The notes under the pieces are model-generated. The model worked only from the letters and a program-made list of their open reading frames with translations, ran no database searches and had not been told where the DNA came from. Below are positions 6,200-22,136 of a stretch of DNA of 26,905 nucleotides, in pieces (the first letter of the stretch is position 1; the number at the start of each line of letters is the position of its first letter). The position numbers and the translations under genes are program-made. This stretch comes from a virus. The stretch spans positions 1 to 26,905 of IMG/VR virus record IMGVR_UViG_3300006052_000027; one strand, 5' to 3'.

Positions 6200-6228
6200 T
6201 TGACAAACTAGCAACTTCAATGTATACT
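6200..6228 (+). promoter_or_regulatory. Host sigma70-type promoter upstream of the integrase unit
   Basis: TTGACA at 6200-6205 and TATACT at 6223-6228 are separated by exactly 17 bases: a perfect -35 and a 5/6 -10. The predicted transcription start is near 6235. It lies just after the exonuclease stop and upstream of the membrane peptide and integrase, so it could express integrase from host polymerase independently of the early operon. ATACT-CCT-AGTAT at 6224-6236 overlaps the -10 and start region and might be an operator half-site pair. Confidence 0.7.
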
Positions 6229-6234
6229 CCTAGT

Positions 6235-6405
6235 ATGCGGATAGCGATTGTAGTCTTAGCGGTGTTACCGGTGTTCTACCTCACGGTAAAATGGGTAAAC
6301 GCTGAGAAGCGTGCCGCATACTTAGAAGGCAGACAGAGCGTCTACAACGAGGAAACGGAACTCCCTCCCTCAAGCTCTTGTTATGCCAAGAATGGGAGAT
6401 GCTAA
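6235..6405 (+). CDS. Small signal-anchor membrane protein
   Basis: The 56-residue frame from ATG 6235 starts MRIAIVVLAVLPVFYLTVKWV, a hydrophobic segment that would serve as a signal anchor, followed by a charged, coiled stretch (NAEKRAAYLEGRQS) and a Cys-containing C terminus. An in-frame ATG at 6220 lies inside the promoter, so it cannot be used by a transcript starting near 6235. Translation from 6235 would be nearly leaderless unless a longer operon transcript is used. The stop overlaps the integrase start as TAATG. Function unknown. Confidence 0.5.
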   Translation: MRIAIVVLAVLPVFYLTVKWVNAEKRAAYLEGRQSVYNEETELPPSSSCYAKNGRC

Positions 6406-7409
6406 TGAATGGCATTAGATTAGATCACGGCTGCGTCCAAGTAAGGATTCACCACCAAGGCCGCACCTACTATAAGAACTTTGGTCCCAACTGCCCCGAT
6501 GCTCGTAAGCTGGCAGAGATTCACATTGCCGAAAAGAAGCGCGAGATTCTAATGGGAAAGTTTGGGATCACACCCGAACTGCCAGAAAAGACGTTTAAGG
6601 AATTGGTACCAGTCTACATGGATATGTGGACCAAGGAACGGGACGGGGACGGTAAACCTAAGCACGGCCCTGTTTCGATCTATGAACGTCGGCGGGTCTT
6701 TGACAGGGTGTTGGTACCGTATTTCGGTACCTACAGATACCATAACGTAAGGACGGTGGATGTGGAGAAGTGGCGTGACAGCCTTTTGACCACCGGAGTC
6801 CTTGGGACGACCATTAACCGCTACATGGTCCCGCTAGGGGATATGTTCTCTGCGATAGCAACGGCAGTGGCTACCGAAAGGATACCTGCGTTTAAGCAGC
6901 CGGCAGAGAACCCCTGTAAACACGCAACCAAGGCCAAAATGCGTAAACGTGAGGTCATTTATACGGACTACGAGTTAAAGAAGCTCCACATGGCCTTTAA
7001 CACACTAGGTGACCAGGATGGGTGGGAGATTTGTGTATTGGCCTTAAAGAGCGTTCTCAGCTTATCCGACTTGAAGAAGTTAGAAATTGGGCAAACGATT
7101 GACCTTGACCGTAGTAAGACAGGTGTGCCGGTTCACATACCCATTACGGTATTGGAGAAGTTGAATTGGAAGAACTGGCGCAGACGTTGGTCAAAGGCAA
7201 GAGAAGTTGCGGGACTGAAAGATAAGCAATTTAGAGACTTGCGGAAGACAGGCGGTAACAAGCCTATCGGTAAGTTTGACTTGAAGTTAGTGAGCCAGTA
7301 CTTTGGTCACTCGAACATCAAAACTACCGAGAATTCCTACATGGTCACCTCCCAGGAAAAGATGCGTCCCATTGCGGAATTCTTGGAAGCTTGGACGAGG
7401 ACATTATGA
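6405..7409 (+). CDS. int: Tyrosine recombinase / phage integrase with non-canonical active site
   Basis: This 334-residue integrase would catalyse site-specific insertion of the phage genome. The N-terminal 55 residues (VQVRIHHQGRTYYKNFG...AEKKREILMGKF) look like an arm-binding domain, residues 60-165 like a core-binding SAM-like domain, and 190-334 like the catalytic domain. Visible catalytic residues are K238 (RSKTG), R280 (DLRKT), H302 (FGHSN) and the nucleophile Y312 (ENSYMV). The usual first arginine (TGLR-x-S-[ED]-L) aligns with SVLSLSDL, giving Ser219, and the His of HxLR is Arg277. The start at 6405 uses TAATG with GGGAG upstream. The nearby repeats fit an attachment site. Confidence 0.85.
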   Translation: MNGIRLDHGCVQVRIHHQGRTYYKNFGPNCPDARKLAEIHIAEKKREILMGKFGITPELPEKTFKELVPVYMDMWTKERDGDGKPKHGPVSIYERRRVFDRVLVPYFGTYRYHNVRTVDVEKWRDSLLTTGVLGTTINRYMVPLGDMFSAIATAVATERIPAFKQPAENPCKHATKAKMRKREVIYTDYELKKLHMAFNTLGDQDGWEICVLALKSVLSLSDLKKLEIGQTIDLDRSKTGVPVHIPITVLEKLNWKNWRRRWSKAREVAGLKDKQFRDLRKTGGNKPIGKFDLKLVSQYFGHSNIKTTENSYMVTSQEKMRPIAEFLEAWTRTL

Positions 7410-8835: not shown

Positions 8836-9243
8836 TTAAGGAAGGATTTGTAGTCTAATCCCCTCTTTCCTTCTGCGCCACATCTTCCATAATAATTGAG
8901 CCAGGGCCTTGCGACTCTCCAATACAGAGTCCAGGGCCTTTTCTCTACCTACCAAAAGACACCCATCCGAATCAGACGGCTTGTTGCCGTGATGTATTCT
9001 AACACCCTCAAATCCTGGCACGTTGTTGACCAATGGGCATATTCGTGGTCCGTGGGGCTTCGAGAAGTGTGGTGACACGGTCATTGTAACCACGTACGTG
9101 CCCGACGGGATACCAGTTATACCATCAATTTTAACAGCGCGTTGGGGGTGTTCCAACACATAGCACTCGAATTGCCCGTCAATATCCACAGTGCTGATAG
9201 TTGACACATTTGTAAACAACGTGTGTTTTACCGTTAGTTTCAT
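8836..9243 (-). CDS. DUF5675-like protein, candidate peptidoglycan-active lysis protein
   Basis: The 135-residue protein begins MKLTVKHTLF, then FECYVLEHP at 25-33, GITGIPSGTYVV at 41-52, and NVPGFEGVRIHHGNKPSDSDGCLLVG at 74-99, read here in parts. These blocks match the DUF5675 family as I remember it. H84/H85-G-N...D93-G94-C95 resembles the His...Ser-Gly-Cys signature of L,D-transpeptidases, making cell-wall activity plausible but unproved. The start at 9243 is taken because TAATG joins it to the zinc-ribbon gene upstream; an in-frame ATG at 9273 is less likely. It ends the late operon beside a membrane protein, a usual place for a lysin. Confidence 0.65.
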   Translation of the reverse strand: MKLTVKHTLFTNVSTISTVDIDGQFECYVLEHPQRAVKIDGITGIPSGTYVVTMTVSPHFSKPHGPRICPLVNNVPGFEGVRIHHGNKPSDSDGCLLVGREKALDSVLESRKALAQLLWKMWRRRKEGIRLQILP

Positions 9244-9401
9244 TATTTCTTTATCGGTCTGACCTTTCCCCATTCTTCCAGGTCAAAGGCAAAATGGCAT
9301 GTTTGACAACGGGTTATTAACCAGTGTTTTAACGTCTTTGGGTCTTGCTGTATCCGTTCTTCTATTGGCCTACTCTTATTGCAGCGTGGGCAAATCTGCA
9401 T
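9243..9401 (-). CDS. Mini zinc-ribbon protein, 52 aa
   Basis: On the minus strand, ATG 9401 starts 52 residues with C4-x2-C7 (ICPRCN) and C32-x2-C35-H36 (RCQTCH), a clear zinc ribbon, and ends with basic RPIKK. Its stop overlaps the start of the DUF5675-like gene as TAATG. The function is unknown; it is one of several similar miniature zinc proteins in this genome. Confidence 0.65.
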   Translation of the reverse strand: MQICPRCNKSRPIEERIQQDPKTLKHWLITRCQTCHFAFDLEEWGKVRPIKK

Positions 9402-15950: not shown

Positions 15951-17600
15951 CTAAGCCTGTGAAATACCTTCTGGGATAGCTGATATGGCAAACCCTTCAA
16001 TGGTGGCTGTGTTGTTTAAAGTGCTGTTTGATAGCTTTACACGAACGGTCTTTGCATCAAACGCAAGTTCTTTCTGGGTAGTTGAAATACCAGCGGTGGC
16101 CCAGGTGGAGGTGCCCCAGGTCATTGTTCCACCAGAGCCAGTTGTTCCCCAAGTTGTCGTAATAGGGGCGATGGATGTTTGTATTGTTGGTATTGAGGTT
16201 GTGTCTGACCCATCCAAGTAACAATCAATGTTAATATACTGACTGGTACTTCCGGTTGTGCCCTTAATTTCAATCCACGGCCACTTGCTTCTAATGGTGG
16301 GTTTCTCAGCAAAAATGTCTCCAAACGTGACATAGCTACTAATCGCCGTTCCATTGTCATTAGTACCAATGTCATGCTGATAGACGGTACCAGCGTAGTC
16401 ACCAGCAAACGGTATCCAAGAACCATTGTTTAGTTCAAAAACTGCCCCGCAAGCAAACGTATTTGCAAAGCTGTGCCGCCCCCACACAAAGTCCGTGGTA
16501 TAGTCCAGCACCCAACAAGTGTCGTTCTGACCGTTGGATTGAGACATAAAACACCACACTTGATTGCGGGCGGGGTAGTTAATCGCCCACACATTTTTTA
16601 ACTGAGAGTGGTCTATGTTGGTAAGATTTGTGATCGTCGTATTTCTACTCTGACTAATGGTGTATCCCACTTGAACGGTGGTCCTACCATCAAAAATCCG
16701 CGGCACTCCAAACTGGTCAACAAAGAACACCAGCTCTGCCCCTGATTGTCGGGTATTGGTGATGGGGGTTGTGAACTTAACAATGGACCGATGTGACTGT
16801 GTACCAACACCGGCAACTACGGGCGTGGGGTTTTGGGTAAACGGGAATATAACACCAGAGCTGTTAACCTGAGTGGGTTGGAACGCTATCTGATAAATAG
16901 CATTGCGTTTAAAGCCGTATAAGAACGTATTGTAGTTAACGGCACCTCGCAGATCCCCACCGGTCTTTGGCGAAATGTCCATATAGTTGTTACTGCCTAA
17001 CATGGTAAAGGAGTTGGGGTTGTTAACGTCAGAGAATCGTAGGCGGTCGTAGTATCGGGTGGAAGATTCTACCGTCTGTCCCCAGAACATATACCCCTGG
17101 TATTCCACATTGAAAAGAGCTGATGTAAAGGCGGGGGAGCCTTGGATAACCTGGGTAGTTCCAGAACTATTGGTTTGCCAACATGTATTACTGTCGTCGG
17201 TCATACAAACAATGTCATTTAAAATGGCGAATGTGTTGTAATAAGTAGATCCCGTGGTGACGGTGGTGCTGTTGGTAATATCGGACCACGTACCACCCAA
17301 ACTAGCCGACATACTATAGAGTTTTCCACCGCAGACTAATAAAGCCTGGTTACCAGAAGAAAACCTAGCCATGTAGATACCATTGCAGGCATTGGCACTT
17401 ACAGGAGAGGTGTTTAGTGGTATATATCCGTTTCGCCACTGAAACCCACCAATGGGAAAGTAGTTAACATTCTGTGCATCCCGTAGTTTGGCCTGTCCCA
17501 AAAGCACCGAGGACGATACGGTGTCAATTCCACCCGTCGTGGAATAACGGTCGATAATGTTCCCACCAAAATTGGGTATTTGACCAGTTGTAGTTGCCAC
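15951..17600 (-). CDS. Beta-propeller-like tail hub / stabilization protein
   Basis: The 549-residue protein is almost entirely beta strands with repeated blocks of the form 'G..L....YN.FLYGFKRNAIYQI', 'VFFVDQFGVPRIFDGRT', and 'DTCWVLDYTTDFVWGRHSF'. These are propeller-like blades with Trp and Asp in turns. The size and position just after the connector match P22 gp10-type hub or tail nozzle proteins that seal the portal after packaging. The C-terminal part (450-549) is Thr/Trp-rich. The start is GTG 17600, overlapping the upstream stop as TAGTG. Exact homology was not tested. Confidence 0.7.
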   Translation of the reverse strand: MATTTGQIPNFGGNIIDRYSTTGGIDTVSSSVLLGQAKLRDAQNVNYFPIGGFQWRNGYIPLNTSPVSANACNGIYMARFSSGNQALLVCGGKLYSMSASLGGTWSDITNSTTVTTGSTYYNTFAILNDIVCMTDDSNTCWQTNSSGTTQVIQGSPAFTSALFNVEYQGYMFWGQTVESSTRYYDRLRFSDVNNPNSFTMLGSNNYMDISPKTGGDLRGAVNYNTFLYGFKRNAIYQIAFQPTQVNSSGVIFPFTQNPTPVVAGVGTQSHRSIVKFTTPITNTRQSGAELVFFVDQFGVPRIFDGRTTVQVGYTISQSRNTTITNLTNIDHSQLKNVWAINYPARNQVWCFMSQSNGQNDTCWVLDYTTDFVWGRHSFANTFACGAVFELNNGSWIPFAGDYAGTVYQHDIGTNDNGTAISSYVTFGDIFAEKPTIRSKWPWIEIKGTTGSTSQYINIDCYLDGSDTTSIPTIQTSIAPITTTWGTTGSGGTMTWGTSTWATAGISTTQKELAFDAKTVRVKLSNSTLNNTATIEGFAISAIPEGISQA

Positions 17601-18730
17601 TAGATTCGATACCTCGGAGGTCGATTAGAAAAAATGGGTGCTGCAACTTGCCGTTGCGTCAGTGATCTATCTTCTGCCTTAGCCTTGTCCCATGCTACGT
17701 TTTGTAGTTGGAATTGGGAGCCCTCACGCGTATCGGGACTCGCGCCCTCTTCACGCCACACTGTGGATTCGATAACAGCCACGGGGTATCGATAAAGCAT
17801 CTCATTGGTATCAATGCTATTAATGAGAGTGGCATACTTCCGATATCCAGCCACTAATACCCCCCATCCCTGGTTAGGTGACGGGTCCAGGCGTAGGTAC
17901 TTACCGAACTGTCTCGATGAGGTGTAAGAGGCCCCACTTGGTCCAACAAGTAAATTCTGATTAAGGATAATGGAGGTGTCACTAAGTACTTTATGCACCG
18001 TGTACGGCGTTAGCACACCCGTCAAGGCACCCACGGTAGAAGAGTCACCCGTAATGGTGATGGTATCGCCCGGGGTGACATTGGCTAGCCACGCGGTCCC
18101 AGAACCAGTTAATGTGTTGGTATTGACTGTCCCAGTCACAGTGCCAGTCGTATAAGTAGATCCAACGAAGTCCTGGTTAAAGATATAGGCCGCACTAGGA
18201 ACACCGCGGTTCACGTTTGGCGGCGCCACATTCCAGTAGATGGGCAAGGCATCCGTGTAGATCGGAACCAGAACGTGCTTTACATCAACCAATTCTGAAG
18301 GAAATAACCAATCCAACTTTTTTAGCTCGAAGTTCTTAGTAGAGCCGGTGGTGCCTTGGTAGGCGGGATCTATCGTGATTTGGTTCGTACTGACCACGTT
18401 CAACACCTTATAGAACATGTTGGGAGCATCGCCATAGAACCTGATGTATGCACCAACGTGTGTGCCTACAACAAACGGAGTACCGCTTGCGTCCGCTGTG
18501 ACAGTCCTTGACCCATTCGTGGCAGTGACAGTGCCGTTAGTGGGGCTAAACAAGTCCGTAACTTCGGGTAACAGATATTCCCGCATACGAAACGACCACG
18601 GGTATCCATCCCACATTTCTTGACACGCCTCGTTCACAAACCGCTTTAGGCGGGTCTGCACGGTCGTATCGTTAATGTTCTTGTTTAATCTCGATGCAAC
18701 CGTGGTTATGATGTCGTTAAGATTGGCCAT
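17600..18730 (-). CDS. Head-tail connector / tail accessory protein
   Basis: The 376 residues open with helices (LNDIITTVASRLNKN; RLKRFVNEACQEMWDGYPWSFRMREY), the N-terminal look of podovirus adaptors such as P22 gp4-like and tubular A-like proteins. Two small beta modules follow: one at about 66-130 (TVTATNGSRTVTAD...YIRFYGD...ITIDPAYQG) and a second at about 190-270 (TVNTNTLTGSGTAWL...DTITITGD...SIILNQN). The C terminus is helical again (YRYPVAVIESTVWREEGA). It probably attaches beneath the portal. The stop touches the hub start. Confidence 0.7.
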   Translation of the reverse strand: MANLNDIITTVASRLNKNINDTTVQTRLKRFVNEACQEMWDGYPWSFRMREYLLPEVTDLFSPTNGTVTATNGSRTVTADASGTPFVVGTHVGAYIRFYGDAPNMFYKVLNVVSTNQITIDPAYQGTTGSTKNFELKKLDWLFPSELVDVKHVLVPIYTDALPIYWNVAPPNVNRGVPSAAYIFNQDFVGSTYTTGTVTGTVNTNTLTGSGTAWLANVTPGDTITITGDSSTVGALTGVLTPYTVHKVLSDTSIILNQNLLVGPSGASYTSSRQFGKYLRLDPSPNQGWGVLVAGYRKYATLINSIDTNEMLYRYPVAVIESTVWREEGASPDTREGSQFQLQNVAWDKAKAEDRSLTQRQVAAPIFSNRPPRYRI

Positions 18731-18832
18731 TTATGCAGCCTCTTGTAGCATTCTTTCAGTCTTGTGCGGGCATGGGGTCATTCTTCGCTGTGCCCTACGG
18801 GCCTTTTGTTCGGCTGTACGGGGATTGGGCAT
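18731..18832 (-). CDS. Small basic protein, 33 aa
   Basis: Minus-strand ATG 18832 follows the upstream stop by 2 bases, and its own stop abuts the connector start (TAAATG). The product, MPNPRTAEQKARRAQRRM followed by TPCPHKTERMLQEAA, is an Arg/Lys-rich helix with a Cys-Pro-His group. It could bind nucleic acid or be a small assembly factor. The tight fit between flanking genes supports it. Confidence 0.5.
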   Translation of the reverse strand: MPNPRTAEQKARRAQRRMTPCPHKTERMLQEAA

Positions 18833-18834
18833 TT

Positions 18835-19188
18835 CTAGTTCACGTGGTACAAGAGCGTCACGCCACCTGTGTTTCCCGTCGTGGTGTATGTGATACCAGA
18901 GGAACATCGCACATTAAAGTGCAATTCATTGACAGCCGACAGACTCACAACACCAATTTTGCTTGCGGCATTGGCACCCTGTCCGTCAAATATCGTCAAC
19001 ACACCGGAAATGGAGGGGGTGCCGATAATCACGCCTCGAAAGTCCGTGTTTGGACTGGTCCCAGTAATCTGTTGCGTGGTGTCATTGGTGGCGGTGAAAG
19101 ATGAGGCGTTAATTTCCCGTGTTTCGGTATAGCAATAGGCGGTCGAGGAAAGAGCCAACGACAGCCCGATGAGCAGTAACTTTTTCAT
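18835..19188 (-). CDS. Exported protein with signal peptide, virion-decoration-like fold
   Basis: Residues 1-19 (MKKLLLIGLSLALSSTAYC) form a textbook Sec signal peptide: two Lys, a hydrophobic core and small residues before a cut near STA or AYC. The mature ~98 residues look like one beta-sandwich (DFRGVIIGTPSISGVLTIFDG; GITYTTTGNTGGVTLLYHV). That domain resembles the mature part of the signal-peptide gene on the other side of the coat gene. TAATG links it to the membrane-protein gene. An exported product in a virion operon is unusual; a decoration-like ancestor is my inference. Confidence 0.65.
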   Translation of the reverse strand: MKKLLLIGLSLALSSTAYCYTETREINASSFTATNDTTQQITGTSPNTDFRGVIIGTPSISGVLTIFDGQGANAASKIGVVSLSAVNELHFNVRCSSGITYTTTGNTGGVTLLYHVN

Positions 19189-19385
19189 TAGTGAGACTCC
19201 CTGTAGATCGGTATGAAATAGCTCTTACCGTCGATTTTTTGTTCCATAAATCCAGCAATGTAGAATTTATGTCCATCCAGTGTGTATGTGGATGTTTGTA
19301 CCCGTGCATACAGCATGGCGATTACAAACAACAACACAGCAAATGCATATCCCAACAACGGACGTTTAGATATATTTTCTTCCAT
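19188..19385 (-). CDS. Membrane-anchored small protein, 65 aa
   Basis: One transmembrane segment at about 10-28 (LLGYAFAVLLFVIAMLYA) follows a short basic N terminus, leaving a ~37-residue beta-like domain (TYTLDGHKFYIAGF; DGKSYFIPIYRESH) on the far side of the membrane. Together with the signal-peptide gene after it, this part of the late cluster appears to target the envelope. Overlap with the upstream zinc-ribbon gene is 20 bases. Function unknown. Confidence 0.6.
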   Translation of the reverse strand: MEENISKRPLLGYAFAVLLFVIAMLYARVQTSTYTLDGHKFYIAGFMEQKIDGKSYFIPIYRESH

Positions 19386-19605
19386 TGGTCCTCTTCACAG
19401 TTCCGTCACCCTGCGCCTGTCGGCTTAGAATGTCTTTATAATGCGCTGACGATAGTTCTTGTCCACCCTTGAGCCGAATCATGGCCTTAAAGGTGTTGGG
19501 TTTCAGATCATCCGGTGAATTGACGTAGGCTCTAAAACAATCGTTACAGCGTTCTAGGAAGTCTACGTCGTTAACTTCTTTCTTACACACATCACATGTT
19601 TTCAT
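19366..19605 (-). CDS. Zinc-ribbon protein, 79 aa
   Basis: C4-x2-C7 (TCDVCK) and C20-x2-C23 (RCNDCF) form an N-terminal zinc ribbon, followed by a helical, charged C-terminal half with no recognised motif. No good ribosome site lies upstream of ATG 19605; the 100-base leader instead holds a hairpin (19630-19659). It follows the coat gene and may be expressed at lower level because of that structure. Confidence 0.55.
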   Translation of the reverse strand: MKTCDVCKKEVNDVDFLERCNDCFRAYVNSPDDLKPNTFKAMIRLKGGQELSSAHYKDILSRQAQGDGTVKRTNGRKYI

Positions 19606-19629
19606 GATTTTTAAGGTTAAACTTTAGCT

Positions 19630-19659
19630 GTGGGGTACTCACCGGAGGTTTTCCCCCAC
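19630..19659 (-). promoter_or_regulatory. Stem-loop between coat gene and next gene
   Basis: GTGGGG and CCCCAC pair around a loop that itself holds ACC-TCC-GGT as an inner stem. On the transcribed strand it lies 46 bases after the coat stop. No uridine tract follows, so it is not a classic terminator. It could slow polymerase, protect mRNA 3' ends, or limit expression of the downstream genes. Confidence 0.4.
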
Positions 19660-19705
19660 GGCCAAAGAACAGTTAGTTTTTAGGTAAGAACTTTGTGACT
19701 AGGCG

Positions 19706-20572
19706 TTACTTGCCGTACAGCGTGACTCCGAAGGTGGTACGATAGTTGAGGATACCGTAGATACAGGTAGCCACATACAGATCGCCCGTGTAGTCAGGCC
19801 GGCGCATTTTCTCAACACCAATCTGCTTCTGGATAGCAAGCAGGTACGCATCTTTGTGGAACATCTGGTTAACTTCATGACCACCAGACGTAGGCGCATT
19901 GTTGGTCCAATAGATCACAACACCCAGGCGCTCACCGACGATACCGGTTTTAATCGGCTGATCGGGAACGTAGCGGGTATTAATGAACTGATCGGTTTTC
20001 AACCACGCGGCTTTGGTCTTGGGACCAATGACGCATGACCGATCCGTGTCAGGGGCATCCGCTTGGTCAAGCGCGAGGGCGCACGCAACCCAGTCGTCTA
20101 GGATCGGGTCTTGTCCGAGAGTACCAACAGCGGTGTTGGTCCCACCCGAATAGAGTCCGAGAACGTCTGTGTCGATTTGCACGGCCAGTCCGTAGACCGC
20201 TTTTTCCTTCATCATGTCCGCAAACATATACTTGCTCTGCACGGTCAACATGTCGTCAACCAGGAAGGCTTCGTAATACCGTTTGTTAAGACTCAGTTGA
20301 AGGTTGGTCTGCGTGATGGTGTCGATTTGAACCTGTGACACCGTAGAAACACTGCGGGTCTGCGCGGACGACATGTTAGCCAACTGAGGAATGTTGACCG
20401 TGTCGCCACCGTCTTTAACGAATTCGTCCATTCTCTTAACGAGTTTGGCCGCGACGAGTTGGTGTTCAACGGCAAGCTGCACTTCTTTCGCCCACAGTGT
20501 GGGGTTAAATACTTCTGCTGACTGTCCAGCTCCACCAGTATAGGCGGCTGAACCAATAGCTCCGTAACTCAT
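19706..20572 (-). CDS. Major capsid protein
   Basis: The 288-residue protein has the size, position and composition of an HK97-fold coat protein: N-terminal part with FNPTLWAKEVQLAVEHQLVAAKLV, a strand-turn region 'GDTVNIPQL', helix 'KRYYEAFLVDDM' (E-loop and spine region), alpha-domain 'AVQIDTDVLGLY', and a C-terminal domain with 'YRTTFGVTLYGK'. It follows scaffold and a signal-peptide protein, the usual order. A ribosome site (AGGAACGGTGA) lies upstream. Not further classified by subfamily. Confidence 0.85.
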   Translation of the reverse strand: MSYGAIGSAAYTGGAGQSAEVFNPTLWAKEVQLAVEHQLVAAKLVKRMDEFVKDGGDTVNIPQLANMSSAQTRSVSTVSQVQIDTITQTNLQLSLNKRYYEAFLVDDMLTVQSKYMFADMMKEKAVYGLAVQIDTDVLGLYSGGTNTAVGTLGQDPILDDWVACALALDQADAPDTDRSCVIGPKTKAAWLKTDQFINTRYVPDQPIKTGIVGERLGVVIYWTNNAPTSGGHEVNQMFHKDAYLLAIQKQIGVEKMRRPDYTGDLYVATCIYGILNYRTTFGVTLYGK

Positions 20573-20590
20573 GTTAGTTCACCGTTCCTA

Positions 20591-21028
20591 TTAGTTTTGA
20601 TCGCTTTGTAAGCGATATAGAATGGTCCAGTGTTCGTTGTTACCAGTAGCCGCGTTCATCGTCGCGCTGATACCGTTAACAAACTTCACTGAGACTGGAT
20701 AGAAGGGCTGCACAGTGGCGCTGTTCTGGACAGCACCGACAAACAGTACGCCCGATGTGTGGTTGGCAGTAGCGGAGTCACGGAACGTAATAAAGTCCGA
20801 TGACGCGCCAGTGCTGCTTGATACGATAACCCCAAATATGATTCCTTTGCCGGTCGCAACCAGAACGTCAGTCGTGCCCGTGGCGGTGCCCATGTCATAT
20901 GACGCGGCACCGGCCCACAGAGGATTTCCAATTTGGAGGTTGTTGCTGTCTTTGGGTACAGGAATAGCCGCATAAGAGGCTGTGGCGAACCCAAGGACGA
21001 GCATGAGAGAGATTAGAAGTCTCTTCAT
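20591..21028 (-). CDS. Exported protein with signal peptide next to the coat gene
   Basis: From ATG 21028, preceded by GGAGG, 145 residues begin MKRLLISLMLVLGFATASYA, a clear Sec signal peptide with SYA|A cleavage. The mature part is a beta-rich domain (GIIFGVIVSSSTG...FITFRDSATANHTSG; FYPVSVKFVNGISATM; HWTILYRL) of the kind found in head decoration or fibre proteins. It resembles the product of 18835-19188. It sits between scaffold and coat genes, where decoration proteins are often encoded, yet a signal peptide would send it out of the cytoplasm where capsids assemble. Confidence 0.7.
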   Translation of the reverse strand: MKRLLISLMLVLGFATASYAAIPVPKDSNNLQIGNPLWAGAASYDMGTATGTTDVLVATGKGIIFGVIVSSSTGASSDFITFRDSATANHTSGVLFVGAVQNSATVQPFYPVSVKFVNGISATMNAATGNNEHWTILYRLQSDQN

Positions 21029-21044: not shown

Positions 21045-21701
21045 TTATCCAACGACCTTAATTGAGCCGTTGTTTATTTGTTCGCGGATCTTGGCGTATT
21101 CAGACAGGGGCATGTTTTCGATTTCTTTGTTCGTCATGGTACGGGACGAACCAGCGGCGGGAGCAGAATTAGAAGTAGTGACGGGAGCGTTCTGACCAAT
21201 CGCCTTGAGCCTTTCAGCTTCGGCAGCGGCTTTGGCGGCGGCTTCCGCTTTCTTCTCTTGTTCCATCAACGTCCACGCTAATTTAGCCGTCTTGTCAGGT
21301 GAAGATCCAACAATCCCACGCCGTTGCGCGAACGCAACAACTTCTTTAAATGCGTCGGACTGTTCCACTTCATCTGGATCGACATTAGCCTTGCTTGCGA
21401 TAAAGGCTTTCGCCTTCTCATAAGCCACGGCCTGCATGATTAACGGGGTAGCGTGTTCAACAACTTTCTTCTGCAACAGAGCATCAACAGGGTCGGCCAC
21501 CTGATTACCCGCAGGGACGGGATTTGCCTTCGCTGCTTCAAGCTGCTGTCTTTTCTCGCGTTCGCTGAGTAAATCAGCTTTTATGCCTTTGTTTGCACGT
21601 TCAAGGTCTGCGATTTGTTGCTTCATTTTTTCAAGCTCTTGGGTTGCATCGGACTGTCCCGCCGATGAAGGGATTGAGCTTGCGGGTGTTCCAGTGTCCA
21701 T
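21045..21701 (-). CDS. Scaffolding protein
   Basis: Its 218 residues are charged, helical and Ala/Glu/Lys-rich: a coiled coil at about 20-60 (ELEKMKQQIADLERANKG), a variable middle, a long helix (EKKAEAAAKAAAEAERLKA) and a C terminus NMPLSEYAKIREQINNGSIK that may bind coat protein. The position just upstream of the coat gene is diagnostic. I use ATG 21701 because GGAG lies 6 bases before it; an ATG at 21707 would be too close. Confidence 0.8.
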   Translation of the reverse strand: MDTGTPASSIPSSAGQSDATQELEKMKQQIADLERANKGIKADLLSEREKRQQLEAAKANPVPAGNQVADPVDALLQKKVVEHATPLIMQAVAYEKAKAFIASKANVDPDEVEQSDAFKEVVAFAQRRGIVGSSPDKTAKLAWTLMEQEKKAEAAAKAAAEAERLKAIGQNAPVTTSNSAPAAGSSRTMTNKEIENMPLSEYAKIREQINNGSIKVVG

Positions 21702-21713
21702 AGACATCTCCTT

Positions 21714-22136
21714 TTACGCCGTGATGGGGGCGAATTCACTAATGGACTGTGGTACCATTAGCGGTTTACGACCTGCGTGAATAAGACCAAGTTGTCTTTG
21801 CTTATGCGTTCTAAGCATGTGACAGTTGGCACATACCACATCACACTTTTTTGCTTCTTCTAAAATCGACGATACTGCTGAATTACGGGAAACCATTTGA
21901 CCTATTTCTAAAATCTTTTTTGAAGGATCTCTGTGATCGAACTGCATTTGACAAGGTTCGTACCAACCTTGACAATCCGCGCAGGGTTTGTTTTTAAGCT
22001 GATCTGATAACCGCTTTAAATTCTCTCTACGAGAAGTGGAATACTTTCGACGCTGTGTGACGCGGGCTTTGTACATATCTGTAGTTCGATACCATGCCCA
22101 GTAAGCTCTTCGCTGAATTCCTGTGCGATGACCCAC
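21714..22136 (-). CDS. HNH homing-type endonuclease inserted in the capsid module
   Basis: 140 residues with C52-x2-C55, D67-H68 (MQFDHRDP) and C102-x2-C105-H106 (VVCANCHMLRT), a full zinc-supported HNH nuclease. The N-terminal half is strongly basic. It lies between a small virion gene and scaffold, with a TAGTG overlap upstream and a 12-base gap to scaffold. GTG 22136 is the start. No capsid function is expected, so it is likely a free-standing homing endonuclease that entered the module. Confidence 0.8.
   Translation of the reverse strand: MGHRTGIQRRAYWAWYRTTDMYKARVTQRRKYSTSRRENLKRLSDQLKNKPCADCQGWYEPCQMQFDHRDPSKKILEIGQMVSRNSAVSSILEEAKKCDVVCANCHMLRTHKQRQLGLIHAGRKPLMVPQSISEFAPITA

Follow-up and report, generated by a model that had tools for sequence, protein, structure and literature searches.

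Two small proteins, designated A and B, are encoded on either side of the major capsid protein (MCP, or coat) gene in the window, a 26,905-base linear IMG/VR virus record from an uncultured tailed phage, and both begin with a predicted Sec signal peptide. Their mature domains are homologous, the pair recurs beside the coat gene in distantly related phages, and, judged by sequence features, A and B are very probably exported and cleaved. Phage capsids are built inside the cell, whereas A and B are tagged for export. The two proteins should therefore either work beyond the cytoplasm or arrive at the particle along a path that has yet to be described. The reading that we favor, at a probability of roughly 40%, is that A and B are cement-type proteins that would be exported by Sec and bind to heads at lysis.

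The head genes lie on the minus strand in the order terminase, SU10-type portal, small genes, probable scaffold, B, coat, zinc ribbon, one-TM protein, A, and adaptor (Table 1). No PHROG function was found for the scaffolding candidate. The topology of the 65-aa TM protein was derived from the positive-inside rule rather than from a predictor, and counterparts with a common C-terminal pattern are encoded in the related loci L002, L007, L010, and L012. The start codon (ATG) of A overlaps the stop codon of the membrane protein gene (TAATG), and a GGAG-type ribosome-binding site is found at both A and B, whose ORFs were confirmed at the coordinates given in the preliminary description. L002 also has the zinc-ribbon gene, but none was seen in the coat-to-A interval of L007, L010, and L012; ribbons resembling it lie close to a coat or adaptor gene in L002, L013, L029, and L048. 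The window also encodes an HNH-endonuclease-like protein (21714-22136, within the head cluster just upstream of the scaffold gene, recognized from sequence alone), a tiny basic 33-aa ORF between the adaptor gene and A (18731-18832), and a DUF5675 protein (8836-9273, E 5.6e-25), one of which is also encoded by Helicobacter phage KHP30.

Table 1. Features of the head region of the window and the basis of their assignment
Feature	Coordinates	Strand	Basis
Head-tail adaptor gene, downstream of A	17600..18730	-	SU10_adaptor, E 2.7e-4, below the Pfam cut-off
Protein A, 117 aa (leader plus 98-aa beta-sandwich)	18835..19188	-	ORF; relatives in L002, L003, L007/L006, L010, L012, L013
Predicted Sec signal peptide of A (MKKLLLIGLSLALSSTAYC; alternative cut after ...SSTA)	19132..19188	-	Score 6.5; orthologues 5.3-14.3
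65-aa protein with one TM segment, predicted N-in/C-out	19188..19385	-	Gene abuts/overlaps A
Small zinc-ribbon gene, between the coat and membrane protein genes	19366..19605	-	CxxC pairs in the sequence
Major capsid protein (MCP, coat) gene	19706..20572	-	phrog_267 major head protein, E 8.1e-39
Protein B, 145 aa (leader plus 125-aa beta-sandwich)	20591..21028	-	ORF; relatives in L002, L007, L010, L012, L013, L029, L030
Predicted Sec signal peptide of B (MKRLLISLMLVLGFATASYA)	20969..21028	-	Score 10.7
Probable scaffolding gene, directly upstream of B	21045..21707	-	Position; coiled-coil/low-complexity make-up

Both leaders have the charged n-region, h-region, and A-x-A c-region of Sec/signal peptidase I substrates, as assessed with a home-made score rather than SignalP. 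The scorer was built from 18 well-known E. coli signal peptides, which scored 2.1 to 18.8 in leave-one-out calibration, and 0.12% of random internal 46-mers reached a score of 7. The 33 other genes of the window scored 2.2 or less except for a one-TM protein at 6220-6405; that protein scored 6.6, so the score alone cannot separate the leader of A (6.5) from an uncleaved anchor. A close orthologue of A scored 10.8, the relatives of A and B together ranged from 4.7 to 16.5, and the leaders of A orthologues end in clear A-x-A-like sites (AFA, AYA, VWA, and SYA). For B, the best cut by the scorer falls after residue 17, and residue 20 was chosen from the A-x-A site and the orthologues. All 15 A and B proteins carry a K/R n-region and a hydrophobic core, nearly always followed by an A-x-A-like site, and this character persists even where identity to the window copy is 25 to 40%. 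The leaders (21 to 68% identical to those of the window) have diverged about as fast as the mature parts (25 to 66%) but have retained their character, an indication of function. Between the window and L002, pS exceeded pN for A (0.81 versus 0.31) and B (0.73 versus 0.23), and likewise for the leaders, although these comprise just 19 to 20 codons. A bacterial lipoprotein or spanin reading was rejected, as the lipobox [LVI][ASTVI][GAS]C is absent; the only cysteine at a leader end, TAYC in A, has no small residue at -1 and is missing in relatives. The predicted Sec signal peptides named in the preliminary description were confirmed by score and by the conservation of the relatives' leaders.

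Searches with A, B, and the coat protein, together with alignments, identified relatives in L002, L007/L006, L010, L012, L013, and L003. L002, whose coat protein is 89% identical to that of the window, has the same order of scaffold, B, MCP, zinc ribbon, TM protein, A, and adaptor, and the order is kept without the zinc ribbon in L007, L010, and L012 (coat identities of 33, 34, and 30%). The bracketing of coat and membrane protein that had been noted for the window is an arrangement kept in distant phages. The pair is swapped in L013, with A before the scaffold and B after the MCP gene, and in L003 A follows an unrelated MCP gene together with another leader-bearing protein. Since several of these loci had been found through A or B, a coat-only scan, blind to both, was run. 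It brought in L029 and L030, in both of which a leader-bearing B lies immediately upstream of the MCP gene; the L030 record stops before the expected position of A. The window, L002, L007, L010, L012, L013, L029, and L030 thus all have a gene of the family next to the major capsid gene. Leaderless relatives are encoded behind the coat gene in L031 (33% coat identity) and between the MCP gene and the tail adaptor in L048. No leader-bearing ORF of the family was found beside the coat gene in L033 to L047, whose coat matches are partial and of about 28% identity or less. Profiles found no homologue of A or B in Saffermanviridae or other named phages with a related coat, tblastn of named phages gave no close relative, and scans of genome contigs revealed neither a prophage nor a host. 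A weak match in Acetobacter phage phiAP1 (E 0.2) was set aside because it sits in the tail region. Besides A and B, two leader-bearing proteins were observed: the one in L003 just mentioned, a 224-aa protein between the unrelated coat gene and A (L003:5267-5941, MKKLMIALALLIGFSSLAYA...), with no usable family match, and a beta-rich 133-aa protein before the scaffold gene (L029:4398-4799), in the slot that A occupies in L013 and unmatched by the A profile.

The direct similarity of A and B is marginal (BLASTP E = 0.042, 30% identity over 80 aa; hhalign P of 0.0024 and 0.012). However, among 952 ORFs from 17 head-gene neighborhoods, the A and B profiles independently ranked the same two leaderless proteins top in hmmsearch, namely, those of L031 (2.8e-7 with the A profile and 3.3e-3 with the B profile) and L048 (3.8e-6 and 5.8e-5). 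The score gap to the next match was 22.9 versus 6.9 bits for the A profile and 13.1 versus 10.5 for the B profile, and because the latter gap is small, the match of B to L031 is weak if taken alone. Profile searches of whole records reproduced the shared match for L048 and returned one A and one B per leader-bearing record, save for L003 (A only) and L029 (B only). The homology of the two mature domains is solid through these shared leaderless intermediates together with shared fold matches. The paralogy first seen by eye was thereby borne out, and the short motifs quoted for it are all real, but the third pair had been given in inverted order (NGIS belongs to B and SSGITY to A). In a tree of 17 mature domains, built from a short alignment and with some long branches, all B proteins grouped together (support 100/99), as did all A proteins (92/86), with the leaderless ones on the A side. 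The separate groups across phages indicate that the duplication is old, and a recent duplication was rejected on the same grounds.

The AF2 models of A (pLDDT 84.4, pTM 0.79) and B (pLDDT 71.9, pTM 0.67) have the same best viral-structure match, A0A0F7L9H8, a 100-aa protein named 'Pol-like polyprotein'. Both profiles also detect the L031 protein and a 'Pol-like polyprotein' of podovirus ct2G2228 (UOF81786), in the slot behind the MCP gene; unlike A and B, the latter, of 93 aa and starting MADDRRNRYSN..., has no leader, and its name is uninformative. In the PDB, both models best resemble nucleoplasmin-like sandwiches (Z of 7.9 for A and 8.8 for B), and Foldseek with A placed nucleoplasmin-type folds first, with no phage protein among the best 50 matches listed. 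The cement proteins of Helicobacter phages KHP30 and KHP40 (7dn2, 7dou), small beta-sandwiches of about 125 aa, are middling matches: B aligned with KHP40 cement at Z 7.9 (rmsd 3.4, 101 aligned) and A at Z 6.8 (rmsd 3.8, 94 aligned), with nucleoplasmins equal or better, and B aligned with KHP30 cement at Z 7.5. KHP30 gp15, encoded directly after the MCP gene, has the length of the cement chain and no leader. In contrast to A and B, the KHP30/KHP40 cement has no signal peptide, and no sequence similarity to them is detectable. The turret of the archaeal tailed virus HFTV1 (8qpg), also a head-surface protein with a similar sandwich, matched A at Z 6.0, which is no better than the matches to unrelated sandwiches. 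Since Z values of 6 to 8 are common among beta-sandwiches, the likeness of the modeled folds to capsid cement proteins, at a level generic for small beta-sandwiches, is a lead rather than proof. Ig-like trimeric cement proteins are used by GP4, KHP30, and other phages (PMC9698820), and in HPy1R, which is related to KHP30, mass spectrometry detected in virions the small protein numbered right after the coat protein (PMC9319048). Sequence searches of PHROG, Pfam, and the PDB with A, B, and their profiles returned nothing usable, and as no curated cement family in Pfam or PHROG was matched, A and B are not classed as members of one.

The mature domains contain 0, 2, or 4 cysteines in 14 of the 15 A and B proteins, the exception being A of the window, which has a single cysteine, or two with the alternative cut after SSTA. 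A common C24/C37 pair, whose members are separated by 13 residues and lie on neighboring predicted strands, is found in B of L002, L007, L010, L012, and L030 and counts as one inherited event; B of the window has neither cysteine. In A of L002, L010, L003, and L013, the pairs are at other positions. This pairing is suggestive of disulfides in an oxidizing compartment, and the mature domains are probably disulfide stabilized in most relatives.

A role confined to the envelope is nearly as likely as head binding. Once exported, A and B would then reside in the periplasm or at the cell surface and alter the host, whether dying or lysogenic. They might, for instance, exclude superinfecting phages, mask receptors, or keep released virions off debris, with the TM protein as their inner-membrane partner. 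The signal peptides, the paired cysteines, and a TM protein of envelope type, coupled to A by its abutting gene, are consistent with such a role, and a weak Pfam match to a tyrosine recombinase at 6378-7409 hints at lysogeny. Possible precedents are lambda lom and phi80/N15 cor, which code for exported proteins with signal peptides and lie within or next to structural gene clusters; they are single copies and lie by tail genes. Tailed phage T4 makes an antiholin, RI, that carries a cleavable signal peptide and acts in the periplasm (PMC8385771), but RI controls lysis and is not encoded next to the coat gene. The preliminary description had taken A and B for envelope proteins derived from decoration proteins; that they are paralogous, leader bearing, decoration-like, and placed around the coat gene holds, but an envelope role, receptor blocking, or a part in the outer surface was not established, and nothing in either sequence indicates receptor binding. 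Moreover, expression of exclusion genes is normally early or from a prophage rather than part of a late head operon, and the leaderless sisters in the same slot and the four MCP-gene arrangements point to heads. On balance, confinement to the envelope is a serious possibility at about one chance in three.

It is improbable that the leaders are uncleaved, or cut late, and tie cytoplasmic head assembly to the inner membrane with A and B remaining in the cytoplasm. Proheads of tailed phages can start at the membrane, as in T4, and the score cannot tell anchors from signal peptides; however, small residues stand at -3 and -1 in nearly all relatives, the cysteines are paired, and the charge of the n-region predicts an N-in loop with the domain outside. 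Polymerization into an extracellular fiber or sheath, like the Bacillus Ena endospore appendages with their similar jelly-roll subunit, is very unlikely. Ena1B (7a02) matched B at Z 8.5 and Ena3A matched A at Z 7.0, and some relatives have an N-terminal extension bearing cysteines, but the fold match is generic and there is no conserved Cys-Cys connector. Ena subunits, moreover, are not known to carry a signal peptide.

The placement beside the coat gene, the leaderless sisters in the slot, the four coat-gene arrangements, and the cement-like fold favor a head-related job, and the leaders, cysteines, and coupled TM protein favor a location outside the cytoplasm. Late decoration at lysis would reconcile both sets of signs. 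The late-operon position fits a head-related role as well as an envelope role or slightly better, and we put the chance that A and B bind heads rather than the envelope just short of even. Late expression is presumed from the placement beside the coat gene. Heads of tailed phages assemble in the cytoplasm, so that head binding by exported A and B needs mixing at lysis. According to the late-decoration explanation, A and B would be an anciently duplicated, cement-related family of small beta-sandwiches that gained Sec export. Made late together with the coat protein, they would cross the inner membrane, be cut by signal peptidase, and in most relatives be stabilized by disulfides. The mature proteins would wait outside the cytoplasm, where the cotranslated membrane protein perhaps holds A, until lysis mixes periplasm and cytoplasm and they bind heads to give a late outer layer.

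Searches of the open-licence literature for signal peptides in capsid, decoration, or exclusion proteins found no report of such a pair. As a tentative generalization, some tailed phages may export head-coating proteins by Sec, let them fold and form disulfide bonds outside the cytoplasm, and attach them to completed heads only at lysis. The leaderless sisters in the same slot make the question directly testable. If A and B do belong to the virion, an outer layer would be made outside the cytoplasm, which would open the way to disulfide-stabilized coats; alternatively, phages would have turned cement proteins into envelope factors.
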